Notes: generated by a model not told the origin, from the sequence alone. 51,616 nucleotides of DNA from a virus (IMGVR_UViG_3300030450_002212:1-51616), one strand, 5' to 3'. Positions 15,966 to 38,381 are shown, numbered from the stretch's first letter. Program-made: numbers and translations.

Positions 15966-17872
15966 TCACACTATTATTTTTAACGACATCTGCATGGGCA
16001 ACTGATCCTGTATTTACGATTGGTGCTGATCCTATCATTGATATAACTGGAACTGGCCAAGGATTAAGCCTTGGAGACGATAACATGTCAGGGATGAAAA
16101 ATATCGGTTTCGATTTCACCTTCTATGATCAGACTTTTTCTCAAGTAAATATATCTATGAACGGGTTCTTTACCTTCCAGTCAAATTTTTCTGTGCCAAG
16201 GGTAAGAAATTACAGATCGGAAACGCTCCCAGCTACTTCATTTAACTACTCTGTCTTTCCTGCATGGAGTGATTTTATTAGAAGGTCTAGTGGCAACCAA
16301 TCTCCCTACATACAGACCTTTGGACAAACAGCAGATACAGATCAATATTTTGTCATCATGTGGGACAATGTTTCTGAATACAGTAATGGGTTAAAGAGTA
16401 CCTTTCAAGCTATACTGTACGAAACGACTAATGAAATTTCTTTTCGCTATGATGAACTCCGTATTCAGAATCACGATTTGACCATCGGAATCCAAGGCAA
16501 CAACGAAGCCGTAACCTATATGCGGTATGAAGACACTAATAGTACAACCTTTGTTGAGACAGATGATTTTAGTGTAAGTACAGCTATTGATGAGTCTTTT
16601 AGCAACCTTTCTTCTGAATGTTTAATTGATTCTAGCTTTTCTACATTGTGTGATGTGTATGATTTAAGCAACAATTCTCAGGATGATGACTATCTTTATG
16701 GGATAAGTGAGGATATAATATATGGATATGATGAAGATACGACATTTTACGGACTCAATATGGACGACAATGAACAACCTTTCGCCATTTCAGTTGTTTT
16801 TGCGGATGACGGTGATTGGGGTGATGATGGTAGTTATGATGATGCTTTTCTTATCTTTAACGATATTGAACCTGGTCAAGAGTTTGAATTAGAAGATGAT
16901 ACATTATTTATACATCTTGATAGCGAGTATGATATTGAGTTCCTTGATCCATTGCCTACTGTGGAAGAAGGATTTTTAGAAATAATCGAAATCGAAGAAG
17001 AAGAATTTATCCAACATTTTGAAGAAGTACAAGAAAGAATGGAAGAAGACTTTCTTGTCTTTATGGAAGAAGAGATATCTGAGGAAGAATTTGTTGAAGT
17101 TGTAGAAGAATTTTTTGATGAAGAAGAAGCAATAGAGGAAGAGGAAGAGGCTTTAGACGAAGCCATAGAAGAAATAACACCAGAGGAAGTAGAGGAAGAG
17201 CGAGAAGAAAGAGGAGCTACGAGAAGAAATATAATAACAACAAGAAACCTTGTCTCTGACCTCGTTACAAGCGTTGTTAGAGGTAGTTACACATCTGCAA
17301 ATAGCACAAATGACAGTAATAACAGTGGCTCTGTAAGCGTTTCTGGTACGACAGTAGGGAATGTTAATTCACCTACCGTGTCGAACCAAGTTGCTGCTGA
17401 TCAAGTGCAGACTAATACTGTATTACAATCTATTACTGTAATGCCAATGCCTGGTGTTGATAATACACCGTCTGTTGTTATGGCTGAGGTTCAAGTAACA
17501 ACTATGGAGAACCAGATAGAGAGCGTTACATCTTCTGTTATGACTGCATCGGAAGCAGACCAAGTAGCAGACCAAATTGTAGCTCAGAATATACAGTCTC
17601 AACAGGAAGAAAACGAAAGAAGTCAAAACGAGTCTGGAGAATATAGTACGCAAGGACAAGCTAACTTATTGGCTTATATGGGTTATTCAGCTGGGTTCAA
17701 TGCTTATCAAAATATGAATATACCTGATGGTTCAAATTGGTATGAACCAAGAACTATATATGCAAATGTAATTTTAGATGATAATATAGCCGGATATTAT
17801 AACCTAGTAGGAACAAACTTAGACCAACAAGCTGACCTAATAGGAACACAAGACATGGAGTTTTTTAGATAA
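15953..17872 (+). CDS. Exported protein with NIDO-like beta domain and long acidic helix
   Basis: A 639-residue protein overlapping the previous gene by 13 bp. A clear signal peptide (MFRLITLLFLTTSAWA) is followed by a beta domain at about 25-200 with NISMNGFFTFQS, VFPAWSDFI and FVIMWDNVSEY, similar in pattern to nidogen-like (NIDO) extracellular domains; that match is tentative. Residues 335-425 are an almost continuous Glu-rich helix, then a Ser/Asn/Val-rich region and a small conserved C-terminal domain (YMGYSAGFNAYQNMNIPD). It probably acts at or outside the inner membrane, with the preceding exported protein and the two membrane proteins that follow. Confidence 0.75.
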   Translation: MFRLITLLFLTTSAWATDPVFTIGADPIIDITGTGQGLSLGDDNMSGMKNIGFDFTFYDQTFSQVNISMNGFFTFQSNFSVPRVRNYRSETLPATSFNYSVFPAWSDFIRRSSGNQSPYIQTFGQTADTDQYFVIMWDNVSEYSNGLKSTFQAILYETTNEISFRYDELRIQNHDLTIGIQGNNEAVTYMRYEDTNSTTFVETDDFSVSTAIDESFSNLSSECLIDSSFSTLCDVYDLSNNSQDDDYLYGISEDIIYGYDEDTTFYGLNMDDNEQPFAISVVFADDGDWGDDGSYDDAFLIFNDIEPGQEFELEDDTLFIHLDSEYDIEFLDPLPTVEEGFLEIIEIEEEEFIQHFEEVQERMEEDFLVFMEEEISEEEFVEVVEEFFDEEEAIEEEEEALDEAIEEITPEEVEEEREERGATRRNIITTRNLVSDLVTSVVRGSYTSANSTNDSNNSGSVSVSGTTVGNVNSPTVSNQVAADQVQTNTVLQSITVMPMPGVDNTPSVVMAEVQVTTMENQIESVTSSVMTASEADQVADQIVAQNIQSQQEENERSQNESGEYSTQGQANLLAYMGYSAGFNAYQNMNIPDGSNWYEPRTIYANVILDDNIAGYYNLVGTNLDQQADLIGTQDMEFFR

Positions 17873-25248: not shown

Positions 25249-25473
25249 TCAACTAGATATTGCAGGTTTTTTCATAAAGTTATATGTGGGCATAGTAACT
25301 GTAGTTAAATGTGGTGGTCTGTGGGAGGTTAATCCAAGTCTATGAACCTTCCCAATAACAGAATTTCTACTTATGTCCCCAAAAAACATTGCTATTTCTG
25401 TAGCTGTTTTTCCCTCGGCCCATAGTGTTTTTAATTTCTCCACTCGCTGCTCATCCCAATTTATTCTTGCCAT
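25249..25473 (-). CDS. gcrA: GcrA-family cell-cycle regulator
   Basis: A 74-residue protein whose first 48 residues match the GcrA N-terminal DNA-binding domain: NWDEQRVEKLKTLWAEGKTA, then IAMFFGDISRNSVIGKVHRL. GcrA is an alphaproteobacterial transcription factor that works with sigma-70 at promoters methylated at GANTC by CcrM. This copy lacks most of the C-terminal RNA polymerase-binding part (host GcrA is about 170 residues). A GGAG-rich SD precedes the ATG. It may redirect or compete with host GcrA; that is inference. Confidence 0.88.
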   Translation of the reverse strand: MARINWDEQRVEKLKTLWAEGKTATEIAMFFGDISRNSVIGKVHRLGLTSHRPPHLTTVTMPTYNFMKKPAISS

Positions 25474-25508: not shown

Positions 25509-26957
25509 TTACTCCATATTCTGCAAGATATGCTCAATAACTTTTACGGTAAATCCGTTACCAAGCATCTTGTATCGCTGTGTATTTGATACTCCCTCAC
25601 TATAGTTATCGGGTACCGTTTGAAGACGCTCGCATTCCAATGGTGTGAGCTTACGCCAAGTTAGTTCTTCTTTTTTTACCCTAACTAAAGTAGCATTGTT
25701 TCCACTTGGCTGAGTTAAAGCTACTGATTTTTTATCCGTTCCAACATAACCCTTTCCACCAAAGTTCCTTGGATTGATAGCAATCTCGTCATTATATTCT
25801 TTTAAATTAACTTTTTTCTTAACAGCAACTTTAGGGTCTTTATTTAAAACTTTCGGTATATTTCCGCTACCACTACCTGCCTTTAATGCTCTAGTCTTAT
25901 CACTATCAGGGCTATAGGTTTGTTGTTCAAAGAACCAAGACCTTCCACTTGTGCCTTTCTTTATGTTTGAAATACCATTCTCTGATGTTTGAATAGCAAC
26001 TTTAGGTTCTCTATGGCCACCACCCATTGTTGTAAGTGTAGGTGACTTACCATCTTCTGAGTATACTCGCTTGATAATATCGTAGCCTTTTAAGTCTGCG
26101 GCAACCCCAACTTGTTTAGGTGTATCGTAAGTAGGGATCATCGTTCTCTGTTTTCTTTCAATACTATTCCAAGCAGCAGCTCCATTATAAGATGCTGTTA
26201 AAGCATAAGACTTACCATCTTTGGTCGTCATCTTTTTTAAATCTTCCTCAGCTTTCTTTTTTACATAAGTTGATATCTGTCCTTTATACATAGTTGCATT
26301 AAGACAATTAGATTTTTCATCAATACTTTTAACTAAAGAACCTCTGTCTCTACCCGCAAATTCATTTTTTAAGTATTGAGGTCTTTCGCCCCACTCTTCA
26401 GAAGGCTCTAATATATCTCTTAAAACAATTCCCAAATCTTCTGGTTGTTCAATGTTTTTTATGTTTGTCCAATACAGCCTGTTACGACTTTGGGCTGATA
26501 CTAAAGATGAATTAATTTTGATAGGCTCTATCCCACCAAACAAAGTTCCGTTCCCAGCTTCGGGATAGACCTCTGATATTTGTTGATTGATGACTTCTAT
26601 ATGTTCTTTTTTCATACGGACATTTTCAAGAAGAAAATATTTTGGCTTAACTTCTTTTAATAATCTTATGAACTCAAAAAACAATGCAGAACGAGGGTCA
26701 TCAAATGCGAGCTGCTTACCCGCAAATGAAAAACCTTGGCATGGCGAGCCAGCGACTATTAAATCTATCTCAGGTAAATCTTCGCCTTTGATATCTTTAA
26801 TGTCGCCTAACTGTATTGTGTCTGGAAAATTTTTCTGAGCAATTTGAATAGCATACTTATCTATTTCACTAGCATAATATGTTTCAACATTAACCCCTAA
26901 ATTTTTCAAAGCCAACTGAGTGCAACTCATGCCGTCAAATAGACTTAACACTTTCAT
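25509..26957 (-). CDS. DNA cytosine-5 methyltransferase
   Basis: A 482-residue C5 methyltransferase. Motif I is SLFDGMSCTQLAL at about 5-17; catalytic Cys73 lies in GSPCQGFSFAG; ENVRM at 111 is the motif VI Glu; QSRNRLYW at 156-163 is motif VIII; LTPLECERLQTVP and MLGNGFTV are motifs IX-X. The N-terminus is of the phage/DNMT3-like type. The target-recognition region (about 200-425) contains several degenerate copies of a K-S-x-x-L-T pattern (YALTASYNG, PTLTTMGGG, VALTQPSGN). I chose the internal ATG at 26957 that begins MKVLSLFDG. It probably protects phage DNA from restriction. Confidence 0.93.
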   Translation of the reverse strand: MKVLSLFDGMSCTQLALKNLGVNVETYYASEIDKYAIQIAQKNFPDTIQLGDIKDIKGEDLPEIDLIVAGSPCQGFSFAGKQLAFDDPRSALFFEFIRLLKEVKPKYFLLENVRMKKEHIEVINQQISEVYPEAGNGTLFGGIEPIKINSSLVSAQSRNRLYWTNIKNIEQPEDLGIVLRDILEPSEEWGERPQYLKNEFAGRDRGSLVKSIDEKSNCLNATMYKGQISTYVKKKAEEDLKKMTTKDGKSYALTASYNGAAAWNSIERKQRTMIPTYDTPKQVGVAADLKGYDIIKRVYSEDGKSPTLTTMGGGHREPKVAIQTSENGISNIKKGTSGRSWFFEQQTYSPDSDKTRALKAGSGSGNIPKVLNKDPKVAVKKKVNLKEYNDEIAINPRNFGGKGYVGTDKKSVALTQPSGNNATLVRVKKEELTWRKLTPLECERLQTVPDNYSEGVSNTQRYKMLGNGFTVKVIEHILQNME

Positions 26958-26958
26958 G

Positions 26959-27168
26959 TTATGCAATCCAACATTTGTGAGTGCCACATTCACCTTCTTC
27001 AGCGTCTGCACCACAATGCATACAAACTCCATGCTTGGCTGCTTCTTTTCTATTCTCCTCTTGGATCATAGAATCTATGTGTGCATCACGAGCCCATTCT
27101 TCAGCTGTCATGCCATCTACTGTTGGTTCTTCTTCTTCGTCTGCGATAAAAAGTATTTTGTTACTCAT
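26959..27168 (-). CDS. Small acidic protein with Cys/His metal site
   Basis: A 69-residue protein ending two bases before the methyltransferase start, so the two are co-transcribed. It has an acidic N-terminus and a C-terminal CMHCGADAEEGECGTHKC with CxxC...CxxxxC/H spacing expected for zinc. SD AAGGAG precedes the ATG. Confidence 0.7.
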   Translation of the reverse strand: MSNKILFIADEEEEPTVDGMTAEEWARDAHIDSMIQEENRKEAAKHGVCMHCGADAEEGECGTHKCWIA

Positions 27169-27213: not shown

Positions 27214-27242
27214 TTTATATGGTATAAAGAGGGATAAAGCAA
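27214..27242 (-). promoter_or_regulatory. Promoter for the methyltransferase/GcrA operon
   Basis: On the minus strand TTGCTT, 17-base spacer, TATAAA (-10 at 27214-27219), about 40 bases before the ATG at 27168. Confidence 0.6.
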
Positions 27243-29907: not shown

Positions 29908-29936
29908 TGGTATAACACGGAATTACATATATACCA
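29908..29936. promoter_or_regulatory. Overlapping divergent promoters
   Basis: Plus strand: TGGTATAAC with -10 at 29911-29916, the same extended -10 as the 35-37 kb cassettes, reading toward the small terminase. Minus strand: TGGTATATA with -10 at 29928-29933, reading toward the 29902 gene. Confidence 0.5.
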
Positions 29937-29959
29937 AACAAAAAAGATATTTTTTTAAA

Positions 29960-30147
29960 GTGCTTGACCACTTGACCACTTGCTCATTGAGCTACCTGAG
30001 CAGTGAGCAAGCACCTTCCTTTATAAGTTGTTGTTTTTGTTATATAAAAAAAAGTGCTTGTCCACTAGCTCAATCGGGGTGTTTTAAGGTGAGCAAGCAG
30101 ATTAAGTTACTGAAAAATAAGCAAATGTTCAGCTTGTCCAGCTTGCC
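29960..30147 (+). repeat. CTTGWCCA iteron/inverted-repeat region upstream of terS
   Basis: CTTGACCA at 29963 and 29971 and CTTGCTCA at 29979 stand in tandem every 8 bases; CTTGTCCA/CTAGCTCA at 30057-30072 and CTTGTCCA at 30133 follow. Each of the two larger modules is closed by an inverted TGAGCAAG (30004-30011 and 30090-30097), giving outer arms GTGCTTG...CAAGCAC (29960/30008). The whole sits directly before the small terminase gene, where a packaging or replication site would be expected. No protein-coding frame is supported here. Confidence 0.65.
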
Positions 30148-34668: not shown

Positions 34669-34695
34669 AACATTTCCTTTCTAAAGTTATACTAT

Positions 34696-34724
34696 TTTAT
34701 ACCATGATTTTACATAGCAACAAA
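34696..34724 (-). promoter_or_regulatory. Promoter of the long minus-strand operon
   Basis: On minus: TTGTTG, 16-base spacer, extended -10 TGGTATAAA (-10 at 34696-34701), preceded by AATCA. The same CATGGTAT core occurs in the plus-strand cassettes. Confidence 0.65.
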
Positions 34725-34838: not shown

Positions 34839-34876
34839 TCGGGGTCGGGTCGGCTCGTATCGGGGTCGGGTCGGGC
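34839..34876 (+). repeat. TCGGG repeat block 1, G-quadruplex candidate
   Basis: Two clusters of TCGGG/TCGGGG give five G-tracts of 3-4 bases (34841, 34847, 34862, 34868, 34873), the last three with 2-base loops. Confidence 0.65.
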
Positions 34877-34962
34877 TATAGTATTAGGTGTTATGGTTTA
34901 GGTTTATGTTCAAGTTATGAACCAGAACTACAACCAAAACTACTACACTACATAACAAAATA

Positions 34963-34971
34963 TGGTATAAC
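34963..34971 (+). promoter_or_regulatory. Cassette promoter 1 (extended -10 TGGTATAAC)
   Basis: -10 TATAAC at 34966-34971, preceded by TATGG, about 33 bases before the start codon of the GP88-like gene. Confidence 0.65.
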
Positions 34972-35004
34972 ATACTGTTATTAACTTTTAAGGAAGGTAA
35001 GAAA

Positions 35005-35634
35005 ATGCAAATAATTAATGTATCAAAATTAAACGGCAAATTGGCGGGTTTTCGTGCCATTGGAACGAATACCAAAACGAATGCTTATTGTAATAAAATG
35101 TATAATTCCAAAGGCGACATCATTTGTAAGTTTTGTTATAGTCACAAGGCTTTAGAAATTGCCTACAATAAAAACCTAGAACCATTTCTTGAACATAATA
35201 GTGAAGTTTTAGGGAATAACATTATAACCGAATTTGTTTATAGACAAGGTGCGAATGTCACGACAAAGTTAAACGATGCATATTTTCGTTTTTCTCAACA
35301 TGGTGAGGTTATCAACATGAATCATCTTATAAATTTAATGAACATTGCGAAAGATAACCCTAAAACCACATTCGGGTTTTGGACTAAGAGAAAAGATCTC
35401 CTTAATAAGTATACAAAAGAAAATGACATCCCCGAAAATGTAATCATGGTATACAGTAACCCAAAGATTAACAATGTTATGTACGAACCGCCGAAAAATT
35501 TCGACAAGGTTTTTAATAATGTATGGGCAGAATTTGAAACCGAAAAGCAAAATTGTACGGGTCAACGGTGCATGGATTGTTTGCGATGTTATGACAAAGA
35601 CAAAGACGATGTCATTATTGAAGCCGTAAAATAG
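35005..35634 (+). CDS. GP88-like Cys-rich protein
   Basis: A 209-residue protein. It has CKFCYSHKALE near residue 45, FRFSQHGEVINMNHLINLM in the middle and a Cys-rich end (CTGQRCMDCLRCYDKD). Order and motifs resemble the phage gene product 88 family, whose function is unknown; the cysteine clusters could hold zinc or an Fe-S centre. SD AAGGAAGG. Monocistronic: own promoter and own terminator. Confidence 0.7.
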   Translation: MQIINVSKLNGKLAGFRAIGTNTKTNAYCNKMYNSKGDIICKFCYSHKALEIAYNKNLEPFLEHNSEVLGNNIITEFVYRQGANVTTKLNDAYFRFSQHGEVINMNHLINLMNIAKDNPKTTFGFWTKRKDLLNKYTKENDIPENVIMVYSNPKINNVMYEPPKNFDKVFNNVWAEFETEKQNCTGQRCMDCLRCYDKDKDDVIIEAVK

Positions 35635-35635
35635 T

Positions 35636-35678
35636 CGGGGTCGGGTCGTCGGGTCGGGTTTATACAATCCGACCTTTT
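35636..35678 (+). terminator. TCGGG block 2: G-quadruplex motif plus terminator
   Basis: Four G-tracts (35637-35640, 35643-35645, 35651-35653, 35656-35658) with loops of 2, 5 and 2 bases fit the canonical G-quadruplex pattern. GGTCGG (35652-35657) pairs with CCGACC (35669-35674) followed by TTTT. The G-tracts and the stem share bases, so the two structures exclude each other. Confidence 0.65.
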
Positions 35679-35744
35679 GCCTATATAATAGGTTAAGGAT
35701 AATAAATAATCCATTAAACCAGAAGGAAGGTCCCCGGGAAATCA

Positions 35745-35753
35745 TGTTATATT
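35745..35753 (+). promoter_or_regulatory. Cassette promoter 2 (extended -10 TGTTATATT)
   Basis: -10 TATATT at 35748-35753, preceded by AAATCATG; 24 bases before the next start codon. Confidence 0.6.
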
Positions 35754-35777
35754 AAGTTTTTAATGAAAGGAAATATT

Positions 35778-36149
35778 ATGAGAAAAAAATTAACTTTAGA
35801 TGGCGTTTACACGGGTTTTGAACAGCATGACCCTTGGGATAGATTATGTGGCTTCCATCATTCTTGGAAATGCACCGAGTGCGGCAACCCAACTCAAGGG
35901 ATGATTAAGGCAACCAATGATTTAAATGACACCGAAATTGAGAACATGGAAGGTGTCAATATTATGGAGGACGATTGGGGCCAAGTTGTCCTTACTTTAG
36001 ATGGAGGTATTTATTGTATGTATTGTTCTGCTGGGTGGGATATTAAGAATGTTAGGCTTGACTTTCCCAGTTATAATGCCCGTAATTCTTGCTCCCAGAA
36101 TAGGGAGGACGCTATGAGATTTGATCAAGAAACTATGTACGATTATTAG
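35778..36149 (+). CDS. 123-aa protein with two CxxC zinc pairs
   Basis: CTECGNPTQG near residue 33 and YCMYCSAGWD near residue 79 form two CxxC knuckles. Other parts are acidic. Start ATG at 35778 with GAAAGGAAA just before; an in-frame ATG 15 bases earlier covers the SD. No family recognised; possibly a small transcription or translation modulator. Confidence 0.65.
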   Translation: MRKKLTLDGVYTGFEQHDPWDRLCGFHHSWKCTECGNPTQGMIKATNDLNDTEIENMEGVNIMEDDWGQVVLTLDGGIYCMYCSAGWDIKNVRLDFPSYNARNSCSQNREDAMRFDQETMYDY

Positions 36150-36188
36150 TCGGGAGTCGGGAGTCGGGTTTCCATGTCCCGACTTCTT
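36148..36188 (+). terminator. AGTCGGG triple repeat with sliding hairpin
   Basis: Three tandem AGTCGGG copies (36148-36168) and one complementary CCCGACT (36178-36184) followed by TCTTCCCTC. Any copy can pair, the nearest with a 9-base loop. Two GAGTC sites lie inside. Confidence 0.65.
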
Positions 36189-36255
36189 CCCTCTTCATCC
36201 AAGGGATAAGGTATATATAACAACAACAATATTATACACACCACCAGGAAAAACA

Positions 36256-36264
36256 TGGTATTAT
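36256..36264 (+). promoter_or_regulatory. Cassette promoter 3 (extended -10 TGGTATTAT)
   Basis: -10 TATTAT at 36259-36264 in AAAAACATGGTATTATATAT, 26 bases before the start codon. Confidence 0.7.
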
Positions 36265-36275
36265 ATATCTATTGA

Positions 36276-36286
36276 AAGGAGGTGAT
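36276..36286 (+). promoter_or_regulatory. Maximal Shine-Dalgarno sequence
   Basis: AAAGGAGGTGATT is complementary to essentially the whole anti-SD end of 16S rRNA and lies about 5 bases before the ATG at 36290. Far stronger than other SDs in the window. Confidence 0.75.
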
Positions 36287-36289
36287 TAT

Positions 36290-36481
36290 ATGTCAGACCA
36301 TTTAGAAACAATTAGAAACGAGCTAGAAGATGTCCTTATTAGATATCTTAGAGCTCTAGCTCCAGAACAAGGAGCTGACAATCAGCTAGAAGAAATTCAA
36401 GATTCAGTAGATAGTCTTGAAAGTAAAGTAGAAGATATAGAAAATCGTTTAGATGATGCTTCAGTTTCGATAGACATCTAG
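36290..36481 (+). CDS. 63-aa acidic coiled-coil protein
   Basis: MSDHLETIRNELEDVLIRYL followed by a heptad helix (EIQDSVDSLESKVEDIENRL). The maximal SD before 36290 sets the start; an in-frame ATG at 36272 would swallow the SD. Small, acidic and apparently highly translated, so it may act in large amounts on a host target. Confidence 0.7.
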   Translation: MSDHLETIRNELEDVLIRYLRALAPEQGADNQLEEIQDSVDSLESKVEDIENRLDDASVSIDI

Positions 36482-36489
36482 CTGATGTC

Positions 36490-36520
36490 GGGAGTCGGGT
36501 TACAATATCCGACTCCCTCT
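36490..36520 (+). terminator. Terminator with perfect 9-bp GGGAGTCGG stem
   Basis: GGGAGTCGG (36490-36498), 10-base loop, CCGACTCCC (36509-36517), then TCTTT. Same GTCGG core as the neighbouring cassettes. Confidence 0.7.
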
Positions 36521-36527
36521 TTCCATC

Positions 36528-36551
36528 TTACCTTAACCACGGTTAAGGTAA
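36528..36551. repeat. 24-bp near-perfect palindrome
   Basis: TTACCTTAACC and GGTTAAGGTAA are exact reverse complements separated by two bases (AC), 20 bases upstream of the next promoter: an operator-like site. Confidence 0.7.
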
Positions 36552-36569
36552 TATACAACAACTGACTAT

Positions 36570-36597
36570 TTGATTACAAAACAAAACATGGTATTAT
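36570..36597 (+). promoter_or_regulatory. Cassette promoter 4
   Basis: -35 TTGATT (36570-36575), 16-base spacer, extended -10 TGGTATTAT (-10 at 36592-36597), in AAAACATGGTATTATAT: the best -35/-10 pair of the set. Confidence 0.75.
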
Positions 36598-36627
36598 ATA
36601 TTAAATCAACCGATAAGGAGAAGAATA

Positions 36628-36708
36628 ATGCTTAACTTTATGAAATTCGTTCTGGTGCTTTGGTGTATCATGGCAACGATTATCTTATACATTGGTTTTA
36701 CTGTTTAA
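36628..36708 (+). CDS. 26-aa membrane micropeptide
   Basis: MLNFMKFVLVLWCIMATIIL then YIGFTV: one hydrophobic helix. Strong SD (AAGGAGA) and a dedicated promoter support it despite its size. A second MLNF-type peptide is at 39526. Possible holin/antiholin or membrane-stress modulator; unknown. Confidence 0.6.
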   Translation: MLNFMKFVLVLWCIMATIILYIGFTV

Positions 36709-36710
36709 CT

Positions 36711-36800
36711 AACCTGGGTTCGGGTCGGTTCGGGTAGCAGTTTATCCTTGCATGTTACTTATCCAGATGGTTGATGACATCTGGGAACCGATCCGATTTA
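36711..36800 (+). repeat. Cassette spacer with imperfect CGGGTCGGTTC stem and inner hairpin
   Basis: CGGGTCGGTTC (36721-36731) pairs, with one mismatch, with GAACCGATCCG (36785-36795). Inside lies a perfect stem CCAGATG...CATCTGG (36764-36785 area). No T-run follows, so terminator activity is uncertain. Confidence 0.5.
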
Positions 36801-36821
36801 ATTTCACTTAATGGCAAAACA

Positions 36822-36830
36822 TGGTACTAT
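36822..36830 (+). promoter_or_regulatory. Cassette promoter 5 (extended -10 TGGTACTAT)
   Basis: -10 TACTAT at 36825-36830 in GCAAAACATGGTACTAT, 27 bases before the start codon. Confidence 0.65.
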
Positions 36831-36856
36831 CTATTTATTAAATGAAAGGAAACGAC

Positions 36857-37129
36857 ATGATTAAAAACTTTGAAAACATTAAAAAGGATACTTTGATCCA
36901 TACCAAACAGCTAGGTGTTATCACTAGGGCTAAATCCCTTGAAAGCATCAAGCAAGGAAGAGGATTTAAAAACATTCTTCTTTGTTATTGTTATGGGGAA
37001 GATATCGGCATGTTCAATGAGCACGGCAGTATTTATGTAGAAGATATCGTTCAGGTATTTGATAAAGACCAAGAAGATAATTGGAATTTATACGACGGAA
37101 GAGATGCCAAAGAAATATCCAAAATATAG
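36857..37129 (+). CDS. 90-aa hypothetical protein
   Basis: MIKNFENIKKDTLIHTKQLG, beta-rich centre (NILLCYCYGEDIGMFNEHGS) and acidic end. The ATG at 36857 has GAAAGGAAA before it. Own promoter and terminator. No family recognised. Confidence 0.65.
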   Translation: MIKNFENIKKDTLIHTKQLGVITRAKSLESIKQGRGFKNILLCYCYGEDIGMFNEHGSIYVEDIVQVFDKDQEDNWNLYDGRDAKEISKI

Positions 37130-37147
37130 ACAACTAACCTAGGTTGG

Positions 37148-37208
37148 GGGAGCGTCGTCAATTAGCATATTATTGACCTCGCTCCCTTAATCGGGTCGGG
37201 TTGTCGGG
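37148..37208 (+). terminator. Long hairpin followed by TCGGG repeats
   Basis: GGGAGCG and GTCAAT (37148-37162) pair with ATTGAC and CGCTCCC (37172-37186), with only a 2x2 internal loop. Three TCGGG units follow (37191-37208). Confidence 0.65.
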
Positions 37209-37295
37209 TCTAATGAAGGATGAACATACATATACATACATAGGTTAGGGCCTTACTAATAACAGTGAATTAGTTATTTCCATAATAGAATATTA

Positions 37296-37304
37296 TGGTA
37301 TTAT
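37296..37304 (+). promoter_or_regulatory. Cassette promoter 6 (extended -10 TGGTATTAT)
   Basis: -10 TATTAT at 37299-37304 in AATATTATGGTATTATC, about 50 bases before the next gene. Confidence 0.65.
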
Positions 37305-37355: not shown

Positions 37356-37772
37356 ATGGACTTAATACAAAAAACGACCCAATTGCTCGAAAATGATGCA
37401 AGTGGTAAAAAGAGCCTAACGCCTAAGCAGATAGTGGAAACATTTATTCAGCTTAGAGATGCTAACTTAAAGATACAATCTAATAAGGCTGTATTTGATA
37501 AGATGACTAAGAGCGTATTAGAGCAAGAGCCTAACAATCGCTTTGAATTAGAATACATATCAAATAAAACGCAACTTACTAGAATTGTAAGTCTTGAAGT
37601 AAGGAAGGCTAGTATCAAGACTGTTAAGCAAGTTTTAGATGGCTTACAGACAGGATTATACAGACCTTCTAAAGCCAAGAACTCTATCCTTGTAACGGCT
37701 TACGATGATAATAATCATGAGGTTCAATACATAACTAAGGTAGGATCACAGTTTATTAAGGTAAGCGACTAA
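37356..37772 (+). CDS. 138-aa hypothetical protein, last cassette
   Basis: Helical N-terminal part (KKSLTPKQIVETFIQLRDAN) and beta-rich C-terminus (YRPSKAKNSILVTAYDDNNH). SD AGAAGGAGA before the ATG. The gene is followed immediately by the candidate structured RNA. No family recognised. Confidence 0.65.
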   Translation: MDLIQKTTQLLENDASGKKSLTPKQIVETFIQLRDANLKIQSNKAVFDKMTKSVLEQEPNNRFELEYISNKTQLTRIVSLEVRKASIKTVKQVLDGLQTGLYRPSKAKNSILVTAYDDNNHEVQYITKVGSQFIKVSD

Positions 37773-37783
37773 ATCAGACGCTA

Positions 37784-37890
37784 GATAATGGCGGGAAACC
37801 GCCATTATCGGGCTAGGTTCCCTAGAGGGTTAGAAATGGCAGAATACCGCCATTTTGAGCCCCCTACCCCTCTGCTCCACTTCGAGGAGT
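37784..37890 (+). ncRNA. Candidate structured RNA (three hairpins)
   Basis: Hairpin 1: GATAATGGCGG-GAAA-CCGCCATTATC, a perfect 11-bp stem with GNRA tetraloop (37784-37809). Hairpin 2: AGAGGGTTAG (37824-37833) pairs 9 of 10 with CTACCCCTCT (37864-37873) and encloses AAATGGC/GCCATTT (37834-37855). Hairpin 3: CTCC/GGAG around a 7-base loop (37875-37889). No reading frame crosses it and no T-run ends it. GC content is well above the flanks. An alternative small hairpin CTAGG/CCTAG (37813-37825) competes with hairpin 2. Confidence 0.55.
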
Positions 37891-37963
37891 GAAACGACGA
37901 GAAGTAGGTTTTAGACATACGATTGCAACTTTTAAATTTTTAAGGTACCCTGTGGGACTCCGA

Positions 37964-37989
37964 TTGACTTTTTAAAAAAAAATTATAAT
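37964..37989 (+). promoter_or_regulatory. Promoter of the Pro/Gln-rich gene, possibly leaderless
   Basis: TTGACT at 37964-37969 and a consensus TATAAT at 37984-37989 (14-base spacer, short). The ATG at 37998 lies only 8 bases after the -10, and there is no SD. Confidence 0.45.
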
Positions 37990-37997
37990 ATATACGC

Positions 37998-38381
37998 ATG
38001 AACTTTAATCCAAATAATATGAACCAACCCTTTCAACAGGGTCCCTTGAATCATGCAATGAGTGGAGGGCAGGCTTACAACCCTGGTCGTGGTGGTCAAG
38101 TGTTACAGCAACAACCAAACATGCATCCGGCAACTAAACCCCCAGCTCCGACACCCACACCTCATGGTCATAATCCACAACAACAGCAAAGAGTCCCACC
38201 AAGAAATCCTCAACCAGTAATGCAACAAGGACCAATGACTCCTATGGTAGAAACCAAATCAGTTATGGATGTTCCTTTAGATTTAAATAAAATTCGTGGT
38301 TTTAGTAATTATGTTCGTGGTTTAAAGAATCCTACCCCTCAAAACTATCCAGATATTAATGTTTTCGGAACATATTTTTAA
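37998..38381 (+). CDS. Pro/Gln/Asn-rich protein
   Basis: A 127-residue, mostly disordered protein (MNFNPNNMNQPFQQGPLNHA, repeated PQ/PN runs) with an ordered-looking C-terminus (VPLDLNKIRGFSNYVRGLKN). Such proteins occur in virions as flexible linkers. Lack of an SD suggests a leaderless message or a start further downstream. Confidence 0.6.
   Translation: MNFNPNNMNQPFQQGPLNHAMSGGQAYNPGRGGQVLQQQPNMHPATKPPAPTPTPHGHNPQQQQRVPPRNPQPVMQQGPMTPMVETKSVMDVPLDLNKIRGFSNYVRGLKNPTPQNYPDINVFGTYF

Follow-up and report, generated by a model that had tools for sequence, protein, structure and literature searches.

Why should six neighbouring small genes of one phage each carry their own copy of the same promoter-like core, and what would read it? 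The question arises in a linear, possibly incomplete virus contig of 51.6 kb (36.6% G+C), the whole of which is called the window here, where the six genes sit one after another on the plus strand, in the interval bounded by terS (30.2 kb) and terL (40.1 kb). The large terminase subunit (TerL) shares 55-62% identity with those of HTVC027P and HTVC023P, pelagiphages of the HTVC023P type (55-60% for these two), and of 023Pt_psg01 and DSL-LC04, and the order of TerL, portal, GroES and then structural-type genes matches that of HTVC023P-type pelagiphages. Matches of other window proteins to Sak4, a Cas4-type exonuclease and a primase/helicase agree with this placement; no HTVC023P-type DNA polymerase A was seen among the scanned proteins of this possibly incomplete contig. 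Judged by its proteins and gene order, the contig is an HTVC023P-type, pelagiphage-like podovirus, and its host, by kinship only, is probably SAR11.

The TerS-TerL interval of HTVC023P and DSL-LC04 likewise holds small, widely spaced genes, and in HTVC023P and HTVC027P several of these are preceded by TTGACA boxes (PMC9599517, PMC12753301). In those two phages and in 023Pt_psg01, the boxes before several TerS-TerL genes are paired with other -10s, and the TGGTATTAT flavour was not seen before the genes of this interval. Neither a megablast of the array region against isolate phages nor an Rfam scan of 29.5-40 kb returned a match. Because automatic gene calls missed or shortened several cassette genes, the coordinates in Table 1 come from ORFs read by hand. 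Base-by-base comparison covers two very close relatives, L004 and L005, whose GP88-type proteins are 89-91% identical to that of the window.

Table 1. Promoters, genes and hairpins of the array and its surroundings; each gene row begins at the start codon, rank is the matrix rank within the window, and MFE is in kcal/mol.
Feature	Position	Strand	Observation
Possible terS promoter TGGTATAAC, long leader	29908..29916	+	~300 nt before likely start; conserved in L005
Same-core promoter CATGGTATAAAAT, divergent leftward small-gene operon	34694..34709	-	rank 9; identical core in L004, L005
Cassette 1 promoter TGGTATAAC, extended -10	34958..34973	+	rank 6; kept in L004, one change in L005
Cassette 1 gene, 209 aa, GP88 family (PF17338)	35005..35634	+	Pfam E 1.6e-9; 89-91% identical in L004/L005
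GTCGGG repeats and predicted hairpin after cassette 1	35638..35675	+	MFE -30.2, z -1.8
Cassette 2 promoter candidate TGTTATATT, weak	35740..35755	+	string present; outside matrix top 30
Cassette 2 gene, 123 aa, no family match	35778..36149	+	whole cassette missing in L004, L005
GTCGGGAGTCGGG repeats and predicted hairpin after cassette 2	36150..36206	+	MFE -25.8, z -2.1
Cassette 3 promoter AAACATGGTATTATAT	36251..36266	+	rank 2; kept in L004/L005, upstream spacer unrelated
Cassette 3 gene, 63 aa, coiled-coil-like acidic protein	36290..36481	+	ORF list, relatives
Two predicted hairpins after cassette 3	36488..36555	+	MFE -33.6, z -6.5
Cassette 4 promoter, TTGATT-N16-TATTAT with TG	36570..36597	+	rank 1; 22-bp core also in L004/L005
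Cassette 4 gene, only 26 aa, membrane-type peptide	36629..36709	+	conserved in L004/L005
Predicted hairpin after cassette 4	36720..36796	+	MFE -39.3, z -5.1
Cassette 5 promoter, TTCACT-N16-TACTAT with TG	36803..36832	+	rank 4
Cassette 5 gene, ~90 aa, no family match	36858..37129	+	ORF list, relatives
Predicted hairpin after cassette 5	37142..37200	+	MFE -39.3, z -6.0; T-run terminator here in L005
Cassette 6 promoter, TTTCCA-N16-TATTAT with TG	37277..37304	+	rank 3
Cassette 6 gene, 138 aa, no family match	37356..37772	+	family scan
Predicted hairpin after cassette 6	37784..37809	+	MFE -35.9, z -4.6

The shared core and its -35 partner

All six -10-like strings that a sequence-only reading had located (34963, 35745, 36256, 36589, 36822 and 37296) are present and, much as it had stated, end 24-51 nt before the start codons. 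Every site has TG-N before a hexamer with four to five of six matches to TATAAT, as an extended -10 element does, and TGGTA(T/C)(T/A)A(T/C) is common to five of the six, the one at 35745 being the weak member. The longer context, AAAACATGG or AAAAACATGG, had been claimed for most sites and stands before only three (36256, 36589 and 36822).

With a 16-nt matrix built from eight sites of relatives (TerL ~84-91% identical) and none from the window, five of the six sites were recovered within the top six of ~103,000 window positions. The six best matches are all intergenic in a window that is 85% coding and only ~15% intergenic, so that the motif is not as frequent inside genes as between them. 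The summed rank score of the six leaders was 25.2, against 14.1±1.8 (maximum 22.9) for 300 column-permuted matrices, and a de novo search of 23 non-redundant leaders from five relatives returned an ATATGG core with a log-likelihood of 99.9, compared with 49-61 in shuffles.

Apart from the cassettes, the best-scoring matches lie only at the divergent leftward operon and at a single antisense site. The operon promoter had also been read as sharing the core, which its place in the ranking bears out. The antisense site, a strong copy at 27215-27230 (+) with rank 5, lies in a gap between leftward genes, and no gene was found on its own strand. A further site at 29908, proposed as the promoter before terS, exists and is kept in L005, but its distance from the likely terS ATG (30214) is long and it falls outside the top 30. 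In the long terS leader itself (29940-30120) there are inverted repeats and recurring TTGACCACTTG/GAGCAAGCA segments, and L005 has kept this leader.

Across 25 unique sites of relatives, a TTGACA signal stands exactly 16 bp from the core (3.28 of 6 matches, against 1.91±0.15 in a shuffled null), in a test that is conservative since a few of the sites are probably false. The full TTGACA-N16-TATTAT arrangement with TG occurs in L110, L112 and L037, and TTGAC(A/T)-N17-GATAAT-like forms in some units of L092 and L017. In the window, a partial -35 match is found at 36589, 36822 and 37296 and no convincing box at 34963, 35745 or 36256. Since the same motif follows TTGACA at 16 bp in relatives, the most fitting reading of the window sites is that of ordinary sigma-70 promoters with an extended -10, which supports the proposal of TG-extended, sigma-70-type promoters over coordinated single-gene units. 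The operon that starts at 37998 is preceded by a different promoter-like box (TTGACTTTTTAAAAAAAAATTATAATATATA, 37955-37992), conserved in close relatives, and this distinct box suggests that there are probably two promoter classes.

Hairpins, leaders and the exchange of units

The proposal that each gene has a hairpin of its own agrees with folding, which predicts one after all six genes (MFE -25.8 to -39.3 kcal/mol, z -1.8 to -6.5). Few window hairpins show the T-run expected of a classical intrinsic terminator, and we infer from the predicted folds that transcription may terminate at them. At the end of cassette 5, L005 carries a textbook terminator (GGGCAATTTATGATTGCCCTTTTTTTT) in place of the long GC-rich hairpin of the window and L004. 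The replacement supports the idea that this hairpin, too, acts as a terminator. GTCGGG-rich repeats return at several boundaries between units (34842-34880, 35638-35655, 36150-36163, 36487-36499 and 37193-37210) in this genome of 36.6% G+C. Between the two divergent promoters lies an imperfect inverted repeat (34884-34950), nearly invariant in L004 and L005 and recognisable in L095, which is possibly an origin or a regulator site.

The order of units is kept in L004 and L005, and their content differs. Cassette 2 (~35.65-36.16 kb) is missing as a unit from both, the promoter of cassette 3 is kept in both although the spacer preceding it is unrelated, and the 22-bp cassette 4 promoter (AAACAAAACATGGTATTATATA) has behind it, in both, a 130-aa gene that the window lacks. 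Leaders before genes of unrelated product are homologous, with 72 of 365 pairs above z = 6 compared with 5 of 378 within-gene control pairs, and this homology extends down to the ribosome site. Leader similarity within the window is higher (mean z 4.2) than to other genomes (1.5-2.9); the same holds for L095, and L092, a close relative, has little within-genome leader homology (mean z 1.8). In four further relatives (L094, L102, L104 and L107), the marker gene is preceded by genes of structural type rather than by cassettes, and a search for relatives with the 37356-37772 protein found none.

From these comparisons, the cassettes are modular and have been gained, lost and swapped between relatives, a point absent from the earlier reading, and the region resembles a rack into which small genes, probably acting early, are plugged, to be read by the ordinary RNA polymerase of the host. 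We therefore favour, with a probability of about 0.77, a modular array of single-gene units under host sigma-70 extended -10 promoters, in which the repeats serve as homology blocks for exchange. Each unit would comprise a promoter, a short leader, a ribosome site, one small gene and a hairpin. The promoter would be one for the host's housekeeping sigma-70, with a TTGACA-like box 16 bp from TGG-TATTAT, the box presumably having decayed in several units of the window phage; common promoters would switch the units on at the same time, probably as soon as infection starts. Repeats of promoter/leader and hairpin sequence would be the blocks of homology through which units are gained, lost and re-paired with other genes. 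As an outcome, such gain, loss and re-pairing is shown by the comparison of these sequences, and recombination may be the mechanism behind it.

The principal competitor grants ordinary sigma-70 promoters and holds that their likeness reflects common function or recent local duplication, the repeats having no special part in exchange. The base-level comparison, which covers two very close relatives and shows the outcome of exchange, gives this reading some weight, though it is clearly the less likely: whole leaders are homologous as far as the ribosome site where the genes behind them are unrelated, and the L004/L005 comparison contains both unit-wise gain or loss and gene replacement.

What else could read or bind the sites

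The motif might instead be mainly the operator of a phage repressor or activator that overlaps the -10, with a phage-specific flavour like the stoperators of Cluster A mycobacteriophages. Its conservation does extend beyond the bare -10 hexamer, L092 and L017 have several cassettes with a different flavour, ATATGGGATAATAT, and ATGGGAT or its complement is enriched in the gaps of L112, L092 and L012 (P ~1e-3). The window also encodes a short GcrA-type DNA-binding protein, 74 aa (25249-25473, -), whose match to GcrA (PF07750, E 2.7e-15) spans positions 1-55 of the 155, the DNA-binding part without the rest; its gene adjoins one for a C5-cytosine methyltransferase (25509-27032). Yet a -35 held at a constant distance of 16 or 17 bp suits a promoter, and each flavour differs by a single change from TATAAT within TGn-TATAAT, so that we consider an operator improbable. 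Two specific versions of it were rejected: a group-wide ATGGGAT operator, as neither the window nor the isolates show an excess of this string in their gaps, and GcrA/CcrM control through GANTC, the known GcrA/CcrM site, which is absent within 60 nt of all six sites.

A related and slightly more doubtful idea is that the lineage-specific flavour (ATGGTATTAT here, ATGGGATAATAT in L092 and L017) would be kept by a phage factor, for example the truncated GcrA-like protein, acting with host sigma-70; if so, incoming genes must be re-fitted with the resident leader.

An altered RNA polymerase, which the sequence-only reading had offered as its second option, or an RNA polymerase or sigma factor encoded or modified by the phage, would suit the strong common core and the weak -35s of the window. 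We regard this as very unlikely. Among the window proteins scanned, which are part of the ORFs of a possibly incomplete contig, there was no match to an RNAP or sigma family and no T7-type single-subunit RNAP; complete TTGACA boxes stand at sigma-70 spacing in relatives; and HTVC027P encodes no RNAP and, by RNA-seq, uses that of its host throughout infection (PMC12753301). That AT-rich intergenic DNA simply resembles promoters by chance, a notion to which a loose sigma-70 scan (22 sites against 15.7±3.9 in shuffles; uninformative, so that specific motif tests were used instead) lends itself, is scarcely credible against those tests, the conservation amid diverged spacers and the leader homology.

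Timing of expression and comparison with known systems

By analogy with HTVC027P, the cassette genes of the favoured modular array are likely to be expressed early, and a role in early host takeover is plausible for them. In that phage, RNA-seq places gp30 in the early and late phases and gp33 and gp34, which form one temporal class, in the early-middle phase; all three lie in the TerS-TerL interval, and the early genes are all of unknown function (PMC12753301). HTVC027P (L008) has a repeated leader of its own, TTGACA with TATAGGAT/TAGGATAAT, before gp33, gp34, gp36 and gp38 (16955-17095 and 16175-16774 on the minus strand, 18704 and 19256 on the plus strand). In roseophage CRP-5, a GP88-type homologue is encoded second from the left end, ahead of the primase. 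A recognisable promoter cassette would thus mark small genes that are probably expressed together and early, and provides a handle for finding such genes in metagenomes.

In the literature, we did not find such cassettes described for pelagiphages; the one promoter statement located is about Skadi-1, for which four sigma-70 promoters but no terminators are given. The core shares with bacterial sigma-70 extended -10 promoters the TGn-TATAAT-like hexamer and, in relatives, TTGACA at 16-17 bp, and differs in being conserved past the general consensus (ATGG, ATAT flank). The Start Associated Sequences of Cluster K mycobacteriophages are likewise short repeats before genes of different families, beside large intergenic gaps, but they lie at translation starts, which suggests a role in translation initiation (PMC3203893), whereas the cassette sites lie upstream of the starts and match a promoter. 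The haloarchaeal virus HGTV-1 has a conserved promoter-like box and an inverted repeat before many ORFs; it differs in being an archaeal virus with a TATA-type archaeal box (PMC3950731).

Closest are the PeSLs of T4-type phages, promoter/stem-loop 'mobile regulatory cassettes' credited with the shuffling of small genes (Arbiol 2010; Comeau 2014, via PMC4503421, PMC3950731). Both systems place an early-type host promoter and a stem-loop between small variable genes, and both have repeats common to unrelated genes and linked to modular shuffling; the cassettes differ in having about one unit per gene, a TG-extended promoter with 16-bp spacing, and other hairpin sequences. The window phage belongs to another group, without T4 genes, its TerL grouping with HTVC023P-type podoviruses. 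The cassettes work in the manner of PeSLs and are not counted among them by descent. What is new here is the presence of modular, exchangeable units in an abundant group of marine phages, of a kind known from the PeSL-type cassettes of T4-type phages, suggesting an independent origin of PeSL-like gene exchange outside the T4-type phages.
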